Positions 18,451 through 25,712 of a DNA stretch of 35,909 nucleotides are shown here, piece after piece. How positions within the stretch are numbered: position 1 is the stretch's first letter; each line of letters begins with the position of its first letter. The notes beneath the pieces are model-generated. The model had not been told where the DNA came from. It saw nothing but the letters and a program-made list of their open reading frames with translations, and made no database searches. This DNA is from Modicisalibacter coralii (GTDB lineage Bacteria > Pseudomonadota > Gammaproteobacteria > Pseudomonadales > Halomonadaceae), in the NCBI RefSeq assembly GCF_004117855.1, contig NZ_QWBW01000044.1, forward strand, positions 1-35,909. Direction: 5' to 3'. Both the position numbers and the translations under genes were made by a program.

Positions 18451-18720
18451 TCAATGTTCCTCGTCGAAACGCGCCGCGAAGAGCGCCTCGAGGGCCTCCA
18501 GGGCGTCCTCGGCCTGGGGGCCTTCGGCCTCGACGGTCAGTCGAGTGCCGCAGGGCGCGGCGAGCATCAAGAGCGACATGATGTTGGCGGCGTCGGCGCT
18601 GCGTCCCTGGTGGGCCACGCTGACCCTGGCGTCGTACCCCTGGCAACACTGGACGAGCTTGGTGGCGGCCCGGGCATGCAGGCCGCGCTTGTTGATCAGG
18701 GTGAGTTCACGCTGGGGCAC
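18451..18720 (-). CDS. npr: Nitrogen-PTS phosphocarrier NPr (HPr-like)
   Basis: NPr/PtsO (89 residues) carries phosphate from PtsP (EI-Ntr) to PtsN in the nitrogen-related phosphotransferase system. The active-site histidine is His15 in NKRGLHARAATKLVQ, and the NIMSLLMLAA segment (47-56) is the second conserved HPr block. The start codon lies inside the end of rapZ (14-base overlap), so translation is probably coupled. Distinguished from sugar-PTS HPr by its place in the rpoN-hpf-ptsN-rapZ cluster. Confidence 0.93.
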   Translation of the reverse strand: MPQRELTLINKRGLHARAATKLVQCCQGYDARVSVAHQGRSADAANIMSLLMLAAPCGTRLTVEAEGPQAEDALEALEALFAARFDEEH

Positions 18721-19597
18721 GGGCCTCTCCCACTGCCGTCTGGATCCCCAGTTCGCGATGGCGGATGCGAACCTGGAAACGCTCGGTGAAGTGGCGGGCG
18801 AGACGCTCCACCATATACACCGAGCGGTGCTGACCGCCGGTACAGCCGATGGCCACCGTCAGGTAACTGCGGTTGCTGGCGCGGTAGGCGGGCAGCCAGC
18901 GTTCCAGCCAGCCGCGGATGTCGTCGACCATGGCGGTGACATCGGGGTAGCTCTCGAGGAATTCGACGACCTCGCGGTCGCGGCCGCTGAACGGCCTCAG
19001 GCGCGGGTCCCAGAAGGGGTTGGGCAGGCAGCGTGCGTCGAAAACCGTGTCGGCGTCGAGGGGCACGCCGCGCTTGAAGCCGAAGGATTCGAAGGTCAGG
19101 GTGAGCCGGTCGCTGCGGTGATGGGCGACCTGTTCGGCGATACGCCCGCGCAGTTCGTGAACCGAGAGTTGCGAGGTGTCGATCACCAGATCGGCGAGAT
19201 CGCGAATCCGCGACAGGGCGTCCTCCTCGGATTCGATCGCCTCGGCGAGCGTCATCTCGCTGTCGCGGGTCAGCGGGTGGCGGCGGCGAGTCGCCGAATA
19301 GCGCTCGAGGAGGATCTTGTCCTCGGCGGTGAGGTAGACCACCTGACAGTCGATACCGCGGCTGCGTACCGTGTCGAGCTGGTCGGGAAAACGCGCGAGG
19401 GCGACGGGCAGATTGCGGGCGTCGATGCTCACGGCGATGCTCGAGCGGTCGGTGTCGTCCTGCTGGAGCTCGTCGATCAGGGCGTCGAGGAGCATGGCCG
19501 GCAGGTTGTCGATGGCGTAGAAGCCGAGGTCTTCCAGGGCCTGCAGGGCGATCGACTTGCCCGACCCGGAACGACCGCTGATGATCACGAGCTGCAT
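18707..19597 (-). CDS. rapZ: RNase adapter protein / P-loop nucleotide-binding protein RapZ
   Basis: RapZ (296 residues, YvcJ/YhbJ family) binds nucleotides and, in enterobacteria, delivers the GlmZ sRNA to RNase E to tune glucosamine-6-phosphate synthesis. The N-terminal P-loop GRSGSGKS is at residues 8-15. The C-terminal domain has the conserved GCTGGQHRSVYMVERLA segment. The frame is open up to 19663, but MQLVIISGRSG at 19597, with GGGAGA upstream, matches the family start. It sits between ptsN and npr, as in E. coli and Pseudomonas. Whether a GlmZ-like RNA exists here cannot be seen from this window. Confidence 0.95.
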   Translation of the reverse strand: MQLVIISGRSGSGKSIALQALEDLGFYAIDNLPAMLLDALIDELQQDDTDRSSIAVSIDARNLPVALARFPDQLDTVRSRGIDCQVVYLTAEDKILLERYSATRRRHPLTRDSEMTLAEAIESEEDALSRIRDLADLVIDTSQLSVHELRGRIAEQVAHHRSDRLTLTFESFGFKRGVPLDADTVFDARCLPNPFWDPRLRPFSGRDREVVEFLESYPDVTAMVDDIRGWLERWLPAYRASNRSYLTVAIGCTGGQHRSVYMVERLARHFTERFQVRIRHRELGIQTAVGEARAPA

Positions 19598-19696
19598 CGA
19601 GCGGCTCTCCCTGGTGGCGATGAGTAAGGCGGGGCGACGCGGCGCCCCTGGGAATGTTGACACGTTTCGCGCGTGGCGCGAAGCGGTGTCCGGCCG

Positions 19697-20191
19697 TCAG
19701 GGAGCCTGTCGCGCACTGGCCGACGGGTCGCCCTGGTGGCGGATCGCGTCGAGCAGGATGTCGTAGAGGTCGCGCTGGCTCTCGCTGTGGCGCAGACGAC
19801 TGCGCGTGTCGGCATCGTTCATGATGCCGGCGACCTGGCCGAGCAGCGCCAGGTGCGTGTCATCCGCTTCCTCGGGAACCAGCAAGACGAAGATCAGATC
19901 GACCGGCTCGCCGTCGACCGCATCGAAGTCGATGGGCTCCTGGAGCTTTAGAAAGCCGGCGATCGGGGCCTTGCAGTGCGGATTGCGCGCATGCGGAATG
20001 GCGACACCGTTGCCGATGCCGGTACTGCCCAGGCGTTCCCGTCCGATCAGCCGGCTGAAGACTTCCTGGCTGTCGAGGCTGGGCGTGTTCTGCGCGATGA
20101 AAGTACTGAAGAACTCCAGTACGCGTTTCTTGCTCCCCCCGGGCACCGCGAACAGGGTGCGCTCGGGGGGAAGGATGGCTTCCAGTGTCAT
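19697..20191 (-). CDS. ptsN: Nitrogen regulatory EIIA protein PtsN
   Basis: PtsN (164 residues) is the terminal phospho-acceptor of the nitrogen PTS; in E. coli its unphosphorylated form affects potassium transport and other targets. The phosphorylated histidine is His67 in NGVAIPHAR, within an EIIA type-2 domain. The frame extends upstream as a shadow of hpf, but MTLEAILPPERTLF at 20191 is the family start. A short 10-bp gap separates it from hpf. Confidence 0.95.
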   Translation of the reverse strand: MTLEAILPPERTLFAVPGGSKKRVLEFFSTFIAQNTPSLDSQEVFSRLIGRERLGSTGIGNGVAIPHARNPHCKAPIAGFLKLQEPIDFDAVDGEPVDLIFVLLVPEEADDTHLALLGQVAGIMNDADTRSRLRHSESQRDLYDILLDAIRHQGDPSASARQAP

Positions 20192-20201
20192 GATGGAGGG
20201 G

Positions 20202-20510
20202 TCAGCGGGCGCCGGCGCCTTGCGCGCGGGCCTGGGCCTTCTCCTTGTGCTTGACGAGCTGGCGGTCGAGCTTGTCGGCCAGCGCGTCGATGGCGGCGTA
20301 CATGTCCGCATTCTCGGCTTCGGCGTGCAGATCGGCACCGGCGGCGTGCAGGGTACAGGCGGCCTGTTGACGCTCCTTCTCGATCGACAGCGTCACCTGG
20401 GCCGTGGTGATGTTGTCGTAATGGCGTTCCAGCCGCATGAGTTTCTCGTTGACGTAGTCACGCAGAGCATCCGTCAGTTCGACGTGATGGCCGGTGATGT
20501 TGGCTTGCAT
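20202..20510 (-). CDS. hpf: Ribosome hibernation promoting factor
   Basis: HPF (102 residues, short form of the S30AE/YfiA family) binds the 30S decoding region and promotes 100S ribosome dimers in stationary phase. The opening MQANITGHHVELTDALRDYV and the central HYDNITTAQVTLSIEKE are typical, as is DMYAAIDALADKLDRQL near the end. A CAGGAG site 7 bases upstream of the ATG fixes the start at 20510. It follows rpoN with a 171-bp gap that holds its own promoter. Confidence 0.95.
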   Translation of the reverse strand: MQANITGHHVELTDALRDYVNEKLMRLERHYDNITTAQVTLSIEKERQQAACTLHAAGADLHAEAENADMYAAIDALADKLDRQLVKHKEKAQARAQGAGAR

Positions 20511-20543
20511 GGGCACGCTCCTGTTACCGCGGGTGGTGGCTCG

Positions 20544-20571
20544 ATTGTAACCCTTTTTGCAGCTTAGCAAA
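20544..20571 (-). promoter_or_regulatory. Probable promoter for hpf-ptsN-rapZ-npr
   Basis: On the minus strand TTTGCT (20566-20571) and TACAAT (20544-20549) are 16 bases apart, about 34 bases before the hpf start. The -10 is strong (5 of 6) and the -35 moderate. The rest of the 171-bp rpoN-hpf gap has a GGCAC/GTGCC hairpin (20649-20665) just after the rpoN stop and nothing else I recognise. Confidence 0.5.
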
Positions 20572-20681
20572 CCCCCGCGGGATTACCCGAGAGGCAGGCG
20601 TGAAATTTGTCGTTCGCGGGCGGGCGTGTCGGCGGGGTGACGGGGAGCGGCACCTTCCCTGTGCCGGGTGGGACGCGGTGT

Positions 20682-22094
20682 TCAGGCGAGGCGCTTGCGC
20701 TCGCTGGAGGAGGGGATGCCCATGGCCTCGCGATACTTGGCCACGGTGCGTCGCGCGACCTGGATGCCGTCCTCGGCGAGCAGGTCGACCAGCTTGCTGT
20801 CGGAAAGCGGCTTGCGCGGCGGCTCCTCGCCGATCAGTTTCTTGAGCCGGGCGCGGATGGCGGTGCTGGAGTGCGCGTCGCCTTCGCCGCCGACGTGGCT
20901 CGAAAAGAAGTACTTGAGTTCGAAGACGCCGCGCGGGGTATGGATGAACTTCTGGGTGGTCACCCGCGAGATGGTCGATTCGTGCATCTCCACGGCCTGG
21001 GCGATGTCGGCGAGGATCAGGGGCTTCATGGCTTCCTCGCCGCGCTCGAGGAAGTCGAGCTGGCGCGTCATGATCTCGCGGCCGACCTTGAGCAGGGTGT
21101 CGTTGCGGCTCGACAGGCTCTTGATCAGCCAGCGGGCCTCCTGCAGGTGCTGCTTCATGAAGGTATTGTCGTCGCTCTTGTCGGCGCGGCGGATCAGGGC
21201 GGCGTAGTCGGGCTGGATGCGCAGTCGTGGCAGCGCCTCCGGGTTGAGTTCGATGCGCCAGCCGTCGCGCACGTGGCGGGCGAGCAGGTCGGGGATCACG
21301 TAGTCGCTGGCACTGTCGTCGAAGGCCTGGCCCGGGCGCGGGTCGAGCGCGCGGATCAGGGCGATCACCGAATCCAGCTGGTCGTCCTCGAGGCGCAGGC
21401 GCCGCTTGAGCAGCTTGCGATCGTCACCGGCGAGCGCTTCGAGGAACTGGCGAACCAGGCGCTTGGCCTGGGGCAGCAGCGGCGTGTCGTCGGGCAGGGT
21501 GCCGAGCTGGAGCAGCAGGCACTCGCGCAGGTCGCGGGCGAACACCCCGGTCGGGTCGAACTGTTGCAGACGGTAGAGGACCTGCTCGACATCGCTGGCG
21601 CGGAGTCCGGCGAGGCCCTGGGCGCGAAGTCCTTCGGCGAGGGCGTCGAGCTCGCCGTCGAGATAGCCGTCGGCGGTGATCGCGTCGATCAGGGTCTCGG
21701 CGATCAGCCGCTCGCGGGTGTCGAGATCGGCCATGTCGAGCTGCCAGAGCAGGTGGTCCTGAAGGCTCTCGCCGGCGGCGTTGCGGTCGAAGTCGGGGCC
21801 GTCCTCGCTGCGACTGCCGGCCGGCGCGAGGTCCTGATAGGTATCGGACCAGTCGCTGTCGACGCTCAGTTCGTCGGGGATGTCCTGGCTCCAGTCATCC
21901 TCGGCCGGTTCGCTGGACGCGGTCTCGCCGAACTCTTCCTCCATCTCGAGCATGGGATTGGACTCGAGCGCCTGCTGGATCTCCTGGCGCAGGTCCAGCG
22001 TCGACAGCTGCAGCAACTGGATGGCCTGCTGCAGCTGTGGCGTCATGGTCAACTGGGTGCCGACCCGAAGCTGCAACGTGGGTTTCATAGCCAT
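20682..22094 (-). CDS. rpoN: RNA polymerase sigma-54 factor
   Basis: RpoN (470 residues) directs RNA polymerase to -24/-12 promoters and needs an AAA+ activator to melt DNA. Region I is the glutamine/leucine-rich N-terminus (MTPQLQQAIQLLQLSTLDL, 17-35). An acidic region II follows (about 55-100), then the core-binding domain. The helix-turn-helix is in region III, and the RpoN box ARRTVAKYRE at 447-456 contacts the -24 element. All parts are intact. Start is ATG 22094; MKP at 22088 is a close alternative. Upstream lies an exact sigma-54 promoter consensus, suggesting self-regulation. Confidence 0.97.
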   Translation of the reverse strand: MAMKPTLQLRVGTQLTMTPQLQQAIQLLQLSTLDLRQEIQQALESNPMLEMEEEFGETASSEPAEDDWSQDIPDELSVDSDWSDTYQDLAPAGSRSEDGPDFDRNAAGESLQDHLLWQLDMADLDTRERLIAETLIDAITADGYLDGELDALAEGLRAQGLAGLRASDVEQVLYRLQQFDPTGVFARDLRECLLLQLGTLPDDTPLLPQAKRLVRQFLEALAGDDRKLLKRRLRLEDDQLDSVIALIRALDPRPGQAFDDSASDYVIPDLLARHVRDGWRIELNPEALPRLRIQPDYAALIRRADKSDDNTFMKQHLQEARWLIKSLSSRNDTLLKVGREIMTRQLDFLERGEEAMKPLILADIAQAVEMHESTISRVTTQKFIHTPRGVFELKYFFSSHVGGEGDAHSSTAIRARLKKLIGEEPPRKPLSDSKLVDLLAEDGIQVARRTVAKYREAMGIPSSSERKRLA

Positions 22095-22145
22095 GGCGAA
22101 GAAGCGTCATCGAGAGAATTTGTCGACACGTTATCCTGACGCCGA

Positions 22146-22161
22146 AAGGCTTGCAAGCCTT
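22146..22161. repeat. 16-bp perfect palindrome at the predicted rpoN start site
   Basis: AAGGCTTGCAAGCCTT is perfectly self-complementary over 16 bp. It begins 2 bp downstream of the sigma-54 -12 element and would span the predicted transcription start (about 22153). It could be an operator or a hairpin at the extreme 5' end of the rpoN message. It lacks a following T-run sufficient for a terminator. Confidence 0.6.
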
Positions 22162-22163
22162 AA

Positions 22164-22179
22164 AGCAATAACCGTGCCA
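22164..22179 (-). promoter_or_regulatory. Sigma-54 (-24/-12) promoter upstream of rpoN
   Basis: The minus strand reads TGGCACGGTTATTGCT, an exact fit to the sigma-54 consensus TGGCACG-N4-TTGCW. The GG (22177-22178) and GC (22165-22166) dinucleotides are separated by the required 10 bases. Transcription would start near 22153, about 59 bases before the rpoN ATG. It lies in the 165-bp lptB-rpoN gap. No activator gene is in this window. Confidence 0.7.
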
Positions 22180-22220
22180 CTATTCCGGCGGCCGGCTCGC
22201 GGCGATGCCTTGCAAGACGC

Positions 22221-22251
22221 GGCGCCGAGGCAGGAGGGGCGGGACGGCGCC
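22221..22251 (-). terminator. GC-rich stem-loop after lptB
   Basis: GGCGCCG (22221-22227) pairs perfectly with CGGCGCC (22245-22251) just 8 bp past the lptB stop. No U-tract follows. It may attenuate read-through from the lpt operon into rpoN. Confidence 0.4.
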
Positions 22252-22259
22252 GGTCGCGA

Positions 22260-22985
22260 CTACAGGCGGAATTCGTTGCCCAGGTAGACCTCGCGGACCT
22301 TCTTGCTGGCGAGGATCGCCTCGGCGCCGCCCTCGGCGATGATCTGGCCGTCGCCGACGATGTAGGCCTTGTCGCAGATATCCAGTGTCTCGCGGACGTT
22401 GTGATCGGTGATCAGGATGCCGATGCCCCGGTCGCGAAGCTGGCGGATGATGCCCTTGATCTCGCCCACCGAGATCGGATCGACGCCGGCGAACGGCTCG
22501 TCGAGCAGGATGAAGGCCGGTTCGGTGGCCAGCGAGCGGGCGATCTCCACGCGGCGGCGTTCGCCGCCGGACAGGCTCATGCCCATGTTGTCGCGAATGT
22601 GGTCGATGTGGAACTCCTCGAGCAGGTGCTCGAGCTGCGTCCGGCGGGCGGCCTTGTCGAGATCCCGGCGGGTCTCGAGGATCGCCATGATGTTGTCGGC
22701 CACCGAGAGCTTGCGGAAGATCGAGGCCTCCTGAGGGAGGTAGCCGATCCCCGCGCGAGCCCGGTGATGCATGGGCGCCCGGCTGAGGTCCTGGTCGTCG
22801 ATCGCCACTTCGCCGGCGTCGGCGCGCACCAGCCCCACGATCATGTAGAACGAGGTGGTCTTGCCGGCGCCGTTGGGGCCCAGCAGGCCGACGATGCTGC
22901 CCTGACCGATGGTCAGGCTGATGTCCTGGACCACCCGGCGATTCTTGTAGCTCTTGGCCAGATGGCTGGCGGTGAGCGTCTTCAT
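22260..22985 (-). CDS. lptB: LPS export ABC transporter ATP-binding protein LptB
   Basis: LptB (241 residues) is the cytoplasmic ATPase that powers LPS extraction with LptF/LptG. Walker A is GPNGAGKT (36-43), the ABC signature is LSGGERRR, and Walker B is [13 protein letters not shown], with the switch histidine in [10 protein letters not shown]. The start [14 protein letters not shown] lines up with E. coli MATLTAKNLAKAYK. An upstream ATG at 23021 overlaps the lptA stop by ATGA but adds 12 residues without homology and has no ribosome-binding site. LptF and LptG genes are not in this window. Confidence 0.96.
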
Positions 22986-23017
22986 CGCGGACGATTCTCC
23001 TCGGTTGTCGGCGCGCG

Positions 23018-23533
23018 TCATTGCGACGACTTGGGGGTGAGGGTCATGCGCACGCGCTGGTCCTGGCTGCCCTGGGCGTTGGAGCGGGCCTGGACCTTGC
23101 GACTGTCGAGATAGTATTCGACATAGGCGCCGTTGAAGGTGTCCTTGGCCTGATGCAGCTCGGCGTGGCCGATCAGTTCGACGCGGCGCGCCCCGGCATG
23201 GTAGACGACGGTGTCGCCCCAGCCCTTGACCAGTTCGTCATCGGGGGCCGGGCGCTGCTCGAGGTAGGCGCGCTGCTGCTGGCCGGTGGCGGTGACCCGG
23301 GTCACTTCGCCCTGGTCGTTGCGTTCGATCTCGACCCGGTGGGCCTTGAGCACCATGCTGCCCTGCTGCATGTCGACGTTGCCGGTGTAGACGGCGGTGC
23401 CGGCGCGGTCGTCGAGCTCGAGGCGATCGGCGGCGACGTTGATGGGTTGGCTGGCATCGCTCTCCAGCGCCATGGCCGATGGCGCGAGCAGGGTCAGCGC
23501 GGTCAGGCCGAGTCCGGCGAGGTAGGCTCGCAT
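23018..23533 (-). CDS. lptA: LPS transport periplasmic protein LptA
   Basis: LptA (171 residues) forms the periplasmic bridge that carries LPS from LptC to LptD. A signal peptide is visible ([22 protein letters not shown], cleavage after about residue 22). The OstA beta-jellyroll domain follows (about 30-150), with the [23 protein letters not shown] segment typical of the family. GTGAGGAT lies just upstream of ATG 23533. It lies between lptC (8-bp gap) and lptB. Confidence 0.94.
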
Positions 23534-23541
23534 GGGTATCC

Positions 23542-24120
23542 TCACTGTTGACTGATCGGCGGGTGAAAACCGTGGACGTCGCCGGCCAGGCGCAGTTGGC
23601 CGGTGTCGATCCAGGCGTCGAAGCGCTCGCCGCGGACCCGCTGGCGGTGCTTGTGAAGCACCGTCTCGGTGTCGCTCCAGGCGTGGCGCTGGTCGGCATC
23701 GTAGATCAGGGTCTGGCTGTTGATCCGCCACCCTTCACCGGGCGTCTGGAGCTGGGCGTCGCCGGTCAGGATCAGCGGGTTGCCGCCGGTTTCCAGCCTA
23801 CCCTTGTCGGCGGTGGCGAACCAGACCCGGCCCTTGGCGTCGACGAGCCGCCCGTCCGGGGTGTCGAGGCGGGTCACGTCGTCACCTGGGGTGTGCTCGA
23901 GACGCGGTGTGGCGAGGCGCTGGTAGGCCTGGCCCTGGCTGTCGAAGCGCGTCAGCTCGGCGTCTTCGAGGTAGTAGTCGGGCTCGCCGGTCTCGCCCTC
24001 GGGGACCGGGCCGGGCGGCGCACTGCCGCGCTGTTCGATGACCGAGAGCACCCCGCCCAGCGCGATCAGCAGCACCACGAGCCACCACTTGGCCGACAGG
24101 CGCGGGAGACGCATCGCCAT
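23542..24120 (-). CDS. lptC: LPS export system protein LptC
   Basis: LptC (192 residues) is anchored in the inner membrane by a single N-terminal helix (about 11-27, KWWLVVLLIALGGVLSV) and hands LPS from LptBFG to LptA. The periplasmic part is the expected beta-jellyroll, with YYLEDAELTRFDSQGQ and LTGDAQLQTPGEGWRI motifs. The start at 24120 is one base from the kdsC stop, so translation is coupled. A second ATG at 24114 is possible. Confidence 0.93.
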   Translation of the reverse strand: MAMRLPRLSAKWWLVVLLIALGGVLSVIEQRGSAPPGPVPEGETGEPDYYLEDAELTRFDSQGQAYQRLATPRLEHTPGDDVTRLDTPDGRLVDAKGRVWFATADKGRLETGGNPLILTGDAQLQTPGEGWRINSQTLIYDADQRHAWSDTETVLHKHRQRVRGERFDAWIDTGQLRLAGDVHGFHPPISQQ

Positions 24121-24121
24121 G

Positions 24122-24679
24122 TCAGGCCTGGCCGTGCAGGTAGGTGTCGAGCACCGACGCCCAGTGGCCCTGGAGCTCGAGCAGGCCGTCGCAGATCTCG
24201 CGGACGGCACCGTGGCCGCCGGCGCGCTCGGTCACCCAGACCGCATGCTCGCGGATATAACGCGGGGCGTTGGGTACGCTGATGCCCAGGCCGGCGCGCT
24301 TGATGGGCGCCAGGTCGGGCAGGTCGTCGCCGCAGTAGGCGACCTGATGCATCTCCAGACCGAGCCGCTGGATCAGGCGGCGCAGCAGGTCGAGCTTGGC
24401 GTCGCTGCCCTGGAAGACGTGCTCGATGCCCAGCGCCGCGGCGCGCCGGGTGACCATCGGCGAATCGCGCCCGGTGATCAGCGCGACCTCGACACCGGCC
24501 TGACGCAGCAGCTTGATGCCCTGGCCATCCTGGGTCGAGAAGGCCTTGGTCTCCTGACCGTCGGCCTGGAAATAGAGCTGGCCGTCGGTCATCACGCCGT
24601 CCACGTCGAGCGCCAGCAGGCGCACGTGGCGGGCGCGCTCCACGAGGGCGGGATGGTTGAGGCGCGGGTCGAGAACCAT
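24122..24679 (-). CDS. kdsC: 3-deoxy-D-manno-octulosonate 8-phosphate phosphatase KdsC
   Basis: KdsC (185 residues) removes phosphate from Kdo-8-phosphate to give Kdo for LPS. It is a cap-less HAD hydrolase: motif I is LALDVDGVMTDG with nucleophile Asp25 and acid/base Asp27, motif II lies in ITGRDSP, and motif III is YCGDDLPDL. AAGGAG precedes ATG 24679. Its place between kdsD and lptC links Kdo synthesis to LPS export. Confidence 0.95.
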   Translation of the reverse strand: MVLDPRLNHPALVERARHVRLLALDVDGVMTDGQLYFQADGQETKAFSTQDGQGIKLLRQAGVEVALITGRDSPMVTRRAAALGIEHVFQGSDAKLDLLRRLIQRLGLEMHQVAYCGDDLPDLAPIKRAGLGISVPNAPRYIREHAVWVTERAGGHGAVREICDGLLELQGHWASVLDTYLHGQA

Positions 24680-24731
24680 GAGTGTCTCCTTGAATTGCGT
24701 GACGACGCGACTGGCCTCGCGTGGCGGATGG

Positions 24732-25712
24732 CTAGATGACGCCGCTGGTCAGCAGGTCGTGCATGTGCAGGGCACCGACCGGGCGGTCCTCGGCGTCGAC
24801 CACCGCCAGCGCGGTGATGCGGTTGTCCTCCATGAGCTTGACCGCCTGGGCGGCGAGCACGTCGGGACGAATGCGCTTGCCGCCTGGCGTCATCACGTCG
24901 TCGACGCGCAGGGCATGCAGGTCGCTGTATTGATCGAGGGTGCGGCGCAGGTCGCCATCGGTGTAGACGCCGCACAACCGGCCCCGGGCGTCGACCACGC
25001 AGGTGAAGCCCAGCCCCTTGCGGGTGATCTCGAGCAGTGCGTCGCGCAGCGGGCTGCCGAGTGTCACGCTGGGCAGGCGCTGGCCAGTATGCATGAGGTC
25101 CTCGACCTTGAGTAGCAGGCGGCGCCCCAGGCTGCCACCGGGATGCGACAGCGCGAAATCCTCGGCGGTGAAGCCGCGGGCCTCGAGCAGGGCCACGGCG
25201 AGCGCGTCGCCGAGGGCCAGGGCGGCGGTGGTCGAGGCGGTGGGAGCCAGGTCCAGCGGACAGGCCTCGCGCTCGACGCCGGCGTCCAGATGGGCCTCGG
25301 CATGGCGGGCCAGCGCCGAGGCCGGGCGCCCGGTCATGCTGATCAGGGGGGCGCCCATGCGCTTGAGCAGCGGCAGCAGGGCGGTGATCTCCTGGGTCTC
25401 GCCGGAATTCGACAGCGCCAGTACCACGTCGCGGGCGGTGATCATGCCCAGGTCGCCGTGGCTGGCCTCGCCGGGGTGGACGTAGAAGGCCGGGGTCCCG
25501 GTGCTGGCCAGGGTGGCGGCGATCTTGCGCGCGATGTGACCCGACTTGCCCATCCCGGTGACCACCACGCGCCCTTCGCAGGCGAGTATCAGCCGGCAGG
25601 CGCGGTCGAAGTCCTCCGACAGCTTGGCGTCGAGGGCGGCGATCGCCTGCTGTTCCAGGTGCAGGGTGCGTCGCGCGCTGTCGCGAAAGGCGAACTCGGG
25701 ATCGATGGTCAT
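24732..25712 (-). CDS. kdsD: D-arabinose 5-phosphate isomerase KdsD
   Basis: KdsD (326 residues) converts ribulose-5-phosphate to arabinose-5-phosphate, the first step of Kdo synthesis. The SIS domain (about 40-180) carries GMGKSGHIARKI with Lys56, and His85 in GEASHGDLGM; Glu149 and His190 (in ALSHPGG) match further catalytic positions known in the E. coli enzyme. Two CBS domains fill about 205-326. It is the first gene of kdsD-kdsC-lptCAB and is divergent from mlaF. Confidence 0.95.
   Translation of the reverse strand: MTIDPEFAFRDSARRTLHLEQQAIAALDAKLSEDFDRACRLILACEGRVVVTGMGKSGHIARKIAATLASTGTPAFYVHPGEASHGDLGMITARDVVLALSNSGETQEITALLPLLKRMGAPLISMTGRPASALARHAEAHLDAGVEREACPLDLAPTASTTAALALGDALAVALLEARGFTAEDFALSHPGGSLGRRLLLKVEDLMHTGQRLPSVTLGSPLRDALLEITRKGLGFTCVVDARGRLCGVYTDGDLRRTLDQYSDLHALRVDDVMTPGGKRIRPDVLAAQAVKLMEDNRITALAVVDAEDRPVGALHMHDLLTSGVI

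Follow-up and report, generated by a model that had tools for sequence, protein, structure and literature searches.

A conserved sigma-54 consensus site in front of rpoN in the Halomonadaceae as a candidate element of negative autoregulation

Sigma-54 must share the core RNA polymerase with sigma-70, and the setting of its level in cells seems to be poorly settled. The consensus of sigma-54 sites is TGGCAYG-N4-TTGCW, and the spacing rule places the transcription start 12 nt after the GC. The sigma-54 polymerase cannot open the DNA without an activator, and where a sigma-54 promoter is activated, a divergent activator gene typically stands beside the site. In Pseudomonas putida, rpoN, the gene for sigma-54, is negatively autoregulated. 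Johansson et al. reportedly described in 2008 that sigma-54 polymerase affects a nearby sigma-70 promoter, the two being divergent and non-overlapping to judge by the title. According to the accessible portion of PMC12316311, the genes that follow predicted sigma-54 promoters are enriched in rpoN (COG1508), both in gammaproteobacteria and in other classes; rpoN autoregulation is inferred there from the predicted promoters, with Geobacter and Dokdonia cited. Unlike the reading proposed below, that portion gives neither the sign of the control nor an occlusion of a sigma-70 promoter, and its main text contains 0 occurrences of both "tandem" and "Halomonas". PMC3844500 states, in the part accessible, that where a sigma-54 site adjoins another promoter or overlaps it, that promoter may be repressed or activated. 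A literature search with coverage mostly without subscription journals found no paper for phrases on rpoN autoregulation.

We analyzed a window of 35,909 nucleotides from Modicisalibacter coralii. Its rpoN gene lies on the minus strand at 20682..22094 and encodes 470 residues from the ATG at 22094, with the Pfam domains Sigma54_AID, CBD, and DBD; an alternative in-frame ATG at 22088 begins the conserved MKP. The upstream gene on the same strand (22260..22985, stop at 22260) encodes an ABC ATPase and was called lptB from its neighborhood and from the usual synteny. The minus-strand order at 18451–25712, read from the ORFs, resembles the usual kdsD-kdsC-lptC-lptA-lptB-rpoN-hpf-ptsN-rapZ-npr run.

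The gap between lptB and rpoN carries the sigma-54 (−24/−12) site TGGCACG-GTTA-TTGCT on the minus strand at 22164..22179. Read from 22179 to 22164, the minus strand gives TGGCACGGTTATTGCT, which matches 12 of the 12 defined positions of TGGCAYG-N4-TTGCW and also fits TGGCAYR-N4-TTGCW. The GG (22178–22177) and the GC (22166–22165) are 10 bases apart, which confirms the full match claimed in the earlier note. The expected sigma-54 start, 12 nt after the GC, falls at about 22153 (minus strand), 59 bp from the ATG at 22094, and the distance given in that note holds as well. The search pattern TGGCACGNNNNTTGCW at 0 mismatches had this site as its single match in the whole window; allowing up to 2 mismatches gave 4 matches against 5.6 expected. 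Exact TGGCACGNNNNTTGCW occurred twice in the 4.44-Mb genome, and its reversed pattern once.

Conservation was assessed in 100 Halomonadaceae genomes picked blind to the site, namely the 30 best RpoN matches, 30 across genera, and 40 further ones, mostly of genus g20. The site (at least 21 of 23 points) was present in 97 of the 100 genomes and in 22 of 24 genera, and it reached the full 23 points in 78; the genomes without it were G221, G024, and G004. The lack of conservation among lptB–rpoN gaps, which the earlier note had named as a refuting outcome, was not seen. Adding 70 genomes gave a set of 170, which is an unfair sample for the tandem described below because 34 of the 70 had already shown it. 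The site was found in 164 of these 170 genomes against 1.26 expected from shuffles. It is kept while the surrounding distances change across relatives, and it is gone in g5 and g24, which have lptB–rpoN gaps of 25–51 bp. By eye, the gap of the congener G038 is the same as that of Modicisalibacter muralis (L004). We conclude that the conserved element is a real sigma-54-consensus site, for which binding is predicted.

Outside the family, 50 named records (L032–L082 minus L078) were compared. At least 20 points were reached in 21 of them against 0.54 expected, at least 21 points in 11, and 22 points in 2; 13 of the 29 records without the site have a gap of at most 62 bp. Since 21 of the 50 records reach at least 20 points and few score higher, the site probably predates the Halomonadaceae and is weaker or absent elsewhere. 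Eight Marinobacter records (L034, L037, L040, L041, L043, L046, L047, and L057) carry another form, CGGCAAAGAACTTGCT or near it, at the same place.

Downstream of the site, the minus strand holds a sigma-70-type −35-like hexamer, TTGCAA (22151..22156), which encloses the expected sigma-54 start, and a −10-like hexamer, TAACGT (22128..22133), 17 bp after it; the approximate start computed from this pair is 22121. The pattern TTGYNN-N16..18-TANNNT followed the site in 95 of the 97 genomes, with a spacer of 17 in 89, whereas 200 shuffles averaged 1.7 and never exceeded 6. The exceptions were G002 and G022, and the element was found in 157 of the 164 site-bearing genomes of the enlarged set. By eye, the window's pair matches the sigma-70 consensus at 7 of 12 positions, and a strict consensus scan of the window reported no promoter; the evidence for either hexamer is therefore comparative, and the claim of a promoter rests on conservation. 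On this evidence, the element looks like a weak sigma-70-type promoter. The estimated sigma-54 and sigma-70-type starts are 27–47 bp apart in all 157 genomes, which is too close for two polymerases, as their footprints would overlap at this separation. Three genomes, G221, G145, and G137, have a lost or decayed sigma-54 site but retain TTGCNN...TAGGGT (by eye; the spacer is 18 in G145). The distance from the sigma-54 site to the −35 element varies, being mainly 17–18, 23–27, or 33–37, and a helical phasing between the two was rejected, the 23–25 group of the window's own genus being out of step.

These features set the locus apart from the described systems in different ways. Pseudomonas has the same gene neighborhood, with AGGCATATAACTTGCT and AGGCATATAATTTGCT in the same gap of L036 and L073; unlike the window's site, the Pseudomonas site is missing the initial T and contains TATAA(T/C). 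TATAAT or a variant was seen inside the rpoN-upstream site of the Pseudomonas-like records L073, L036, L059, and L067 (for example AGGCATATAATTTGCT), so that the Pseudomonas-like site may itself harbor a −10 element. The case of Johansson et al. is alike in that a bound sigma-54 polymerase alters a neighboring sigma-70 promoter, but the promoters there are, to judge by the title, divergent and non-overlapping, whereas both point at rpoN here, with estimated starts some 27–47 bp apart. The second exact match in the genome, L001, offers a canonical sigma-54 promoter for comparison. It has the same 12 defined positions and spacing as the rpoN site. Downstream of it is a flavohemoglobin-like gene, whose product has globin, FAD, and NAD domains, and on its other side a gene encoding a sigma-54 activator domain runs divergently. 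Unlike L001, which is beside this divergent enhancer-binding-protein gene, the rpoN site has neither an adjacent activator gene nor an enhancer that could be seen, and it lies on a sigma-70-like element.

We favor, with some reserve, the reading that this conserved site serves to autoregulate rpoN by negative feedback through a parked closed complex. Sigma-54 RNA polymerase would settle on the site as a stable closed complex and, once parked, would occupy the space needed at the downstream sigma-70-type promoter. Plentiful sigma-54 would then lower rpoN transcription, a negative feedback exerted through occlusion. Mixed behavior is conceivable as well, since with an activator the site could also serve as a second start. 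The site, its conservation, that of the downstream element, the geometry, and the register of the tandem are observed, whereas promoter function of the downstream element, sigma-54 binding at both sites, the negative sign, and the function of the second copy are inferred. The earlier note had offered either positive feedback or repression by parked holoenzyme; the repression half is favored here, and the positive-feedback half is ranked lower. That note had considered neither the conserved sigma-70-like element nor the 18-bp tandem of relatives, and both of these argue for repression, as do the scarce enhancer space with no enhancer signal and the three genomes that lost the sigma-54 site and kept the downstream element. 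The main sites also have TT at positions 9–10 in 113 of 164 genomes, compared with 2 of the 28 loose matches in the window's genome. TT at these positions goes with strong closed-complex binding in nitrogenase promoters, and its frequency at the main rpoN sites fits such binding. As nearly all sampled family genomes have a sigma-54 site on the rpoN promoter region, self-limitation of sigma-54 becomes directly testable.

A search of 250 family genomes with a strict pattern for two sigma-54 sites 14–44 bp apart gave 114 matches in 93 genomes, and the reversed pattern gave 7. In 73 of the 114 pairs, each from a different genome, the spacing was exactly 18 bp, and every one of these pairs precedes rpoN. 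The other 41 pairs are spaced by 15 to 42 bp. The coordinates of 34 of these, all except 7 pairs in G102, G117, G131, G155, and G201, were compared with listed rpoN positions, and 0 of the 34 were at rpoN. Class-wide, any tandem match occurred in 19 of 369 genomes and the 18-bp spacing in 2; the 3-kb loci surrounding these two pairs showed no rpoN start. The enlarged set held 78 tandems with the second site at −18, any other second-site spacing being seen in 1 to 3 genomes each. The 18-bp step was invariant in these 78 tandems, while the distance from the lptB stop to the site took 32 values and that from the site to the ATG took 20.

The upstream copy keeps the GG, the GC, and the consensus between them, and its first base is free. 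The base after the GC is G or C in 77 of 78 upstream copies, over nine genera, and A or T in 162 of 164 main copies. G or C directly after the GC would suit a site for binding without melting. Because G/C replaces A/T at this position, the upstream copy is read as a binding-only copy that would raise occupancy in the many related genera with the exact 18-bp doubling. The tandem is absent from the window, where the −18 place scores 6 of 23 points, and all 14 genomes of the window's genus have a single site. Mapped on a quick protein tree (89 genomes), the alternation between tandem and single site takes at least 6 changes, with gain and loss not distinguishable there. No report of an 18-bp rpoN tandem was found in the literature, again with coverage mostly without subscription journals, and for tandem or overlapping sigma-54 sites it yielded work on RapZ only. 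The autoregulation of rpoN has already been predicted in print (PMC12316311), and within that literature coverage the 18-bp tandem appears to be new.

With all 73 strict examples at rpoN, the fixed 18-bp tandem may be a naturally occurring instance of sigma-54 sites that serve as an operator rather than a start site. A bolder proposal, which we hold as tentative and rather doubtful, is that sigma-54 is a DNA-binding repressor of its own gene through an operator made of promoter copies, the tandem being locked at 18 bp with the upstream copy for binding only. The occupants of the pair might be two core-free sigma-54 molecules or else holoenzymes in competition; an excess of sigma-54 over free core polymerase would then be read on the DNA, and the window's genus would have the one-site form.

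The main alternative to occlusion, possible but on balance unlikely, is positive feedback, in which an activator-dependent sigma-54 promoter boosts rpoN in response to a condition that an enhancer-binding protein of this genome senses, and the sigma-70-type promoter provides the basal level. Several observations speak for it and at the same time weaken the occlusion reading. The site carries the hallmarks of a working promoter, with the full consensus including the T after the GC, and the window's genome encodes ten strong sigma-54 activator domains; weaker activator-domain matches mean little because the model also fires in 14 of 14 control genomes. The accessible portion of PMC12316311 takes predicted rpoN sigma-54 promoters as autoregulation, that is, as promoters transcribing rpoN. 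The distance from the lptB stop to the first sigma-54 site (minimum 9 bp, median 51) is 80 bp in the window and 80–130 bp or more in some genera, where an enhancer would fit. Occlusion is further weakened by the 7/12 sigma-70 match with its empty strict scan, the variable distance from the site to the −35 element, the 7 of 164 genomes that have the site without the downstream element, and the single-site state of the window's own genus. Against positive feedback, several genera leave just 9–30 bp between the lptB stop and the site, which is little room for an enhancer. No motif upstream of the site was seen by eye to be kept across genera, and among 164 genomes this region held an NtrC-like palindrome in none and a NorR-like palindrome in 1. 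Nor was synonymous-site constraint at the lptB 3′ end above that of the rest of the gene in 84 genomes. A raw rise in codon identity some 70–120 nt before the lptB stop had suggested an enhancer within the gene, but this candidate was rejected because the rise was below 2 standard deviations after amino-acid correction and equal or higher windows occur elsewhere in lptB. Scarce enhancer room without an enhancer signal weighs against an activated promoter, although an enhancer of another kind, also one within lptB, is conceivable.

The site might instead mainly store closed complexes or aid the promoter search of sigma-54 polymerase, with little effect on rpoN. Secondary sites aiding the search are proposed in the accessible part of PMC3844500, yet this explanation, which we consider improbable, accounts neither for the fixed place between lptB and rpoN and the neighboring promoter-like element nor for the location of all exact-18-bp tandems at rpoN. 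Chance has in its favor the 28 matches of the looser pattern TGGCAYNNNNNTTGC in the genome, with 10 for the reversed pattern. The conservation in 97 of 100 genomes and the shuffles reduce it to a negligible prospect: 0 of 20,000 dinucleotide shuffles of the 171-bp lptB–rpoN gap reached the full score of 23, and 21 was reached by 0.2%.

Several minor features of the region were also recorded. A 14-codon leader peptide (GTG...TGA) ending on the MKP ATG of rpoN was considered; among the 14 genomes of the genus, just 4 keep this frame open, with 15 codons in one of the four. We do not claim it, because the frame is poorly kept and its GTG falls inside the −10-like element, before the start expected for the sigma-70-type promoter. 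The palindrome AAGGCTTGCAAGCCTT directly after the sigma-54 site was set aside, being absent by eye from the congener G019, and no known RNA family was found in the window at the gathering threshold. The upstream motif [AC]TGAT[AC]T, present in 37 of 164 genomes, was likewise dropped as it is confined to part of g20, g6, and g15 plus one g7 genome; in 36 of the 164 (for example G063, G029, and G014) it lies 26–27 bp before the first sigma-54 site. Outside the family, L312 (G454) has two identical GGCATGTAACTTGC units 19 bp apart in a locus where no rpoN start was found. The rpoN matches are split in two at G114:C40:25731-27148 and G010:C1:1827986-1829394, like an interrupted frame or a faulty assembly. 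A short motif near GTCAGYGA, noticed by eye some 20 bases past the −10-like element, is frequent in the untranslated rpoN leaders of genera g1, g6, g9, g13, and g23 (for example G038, G029, G060, and G023).
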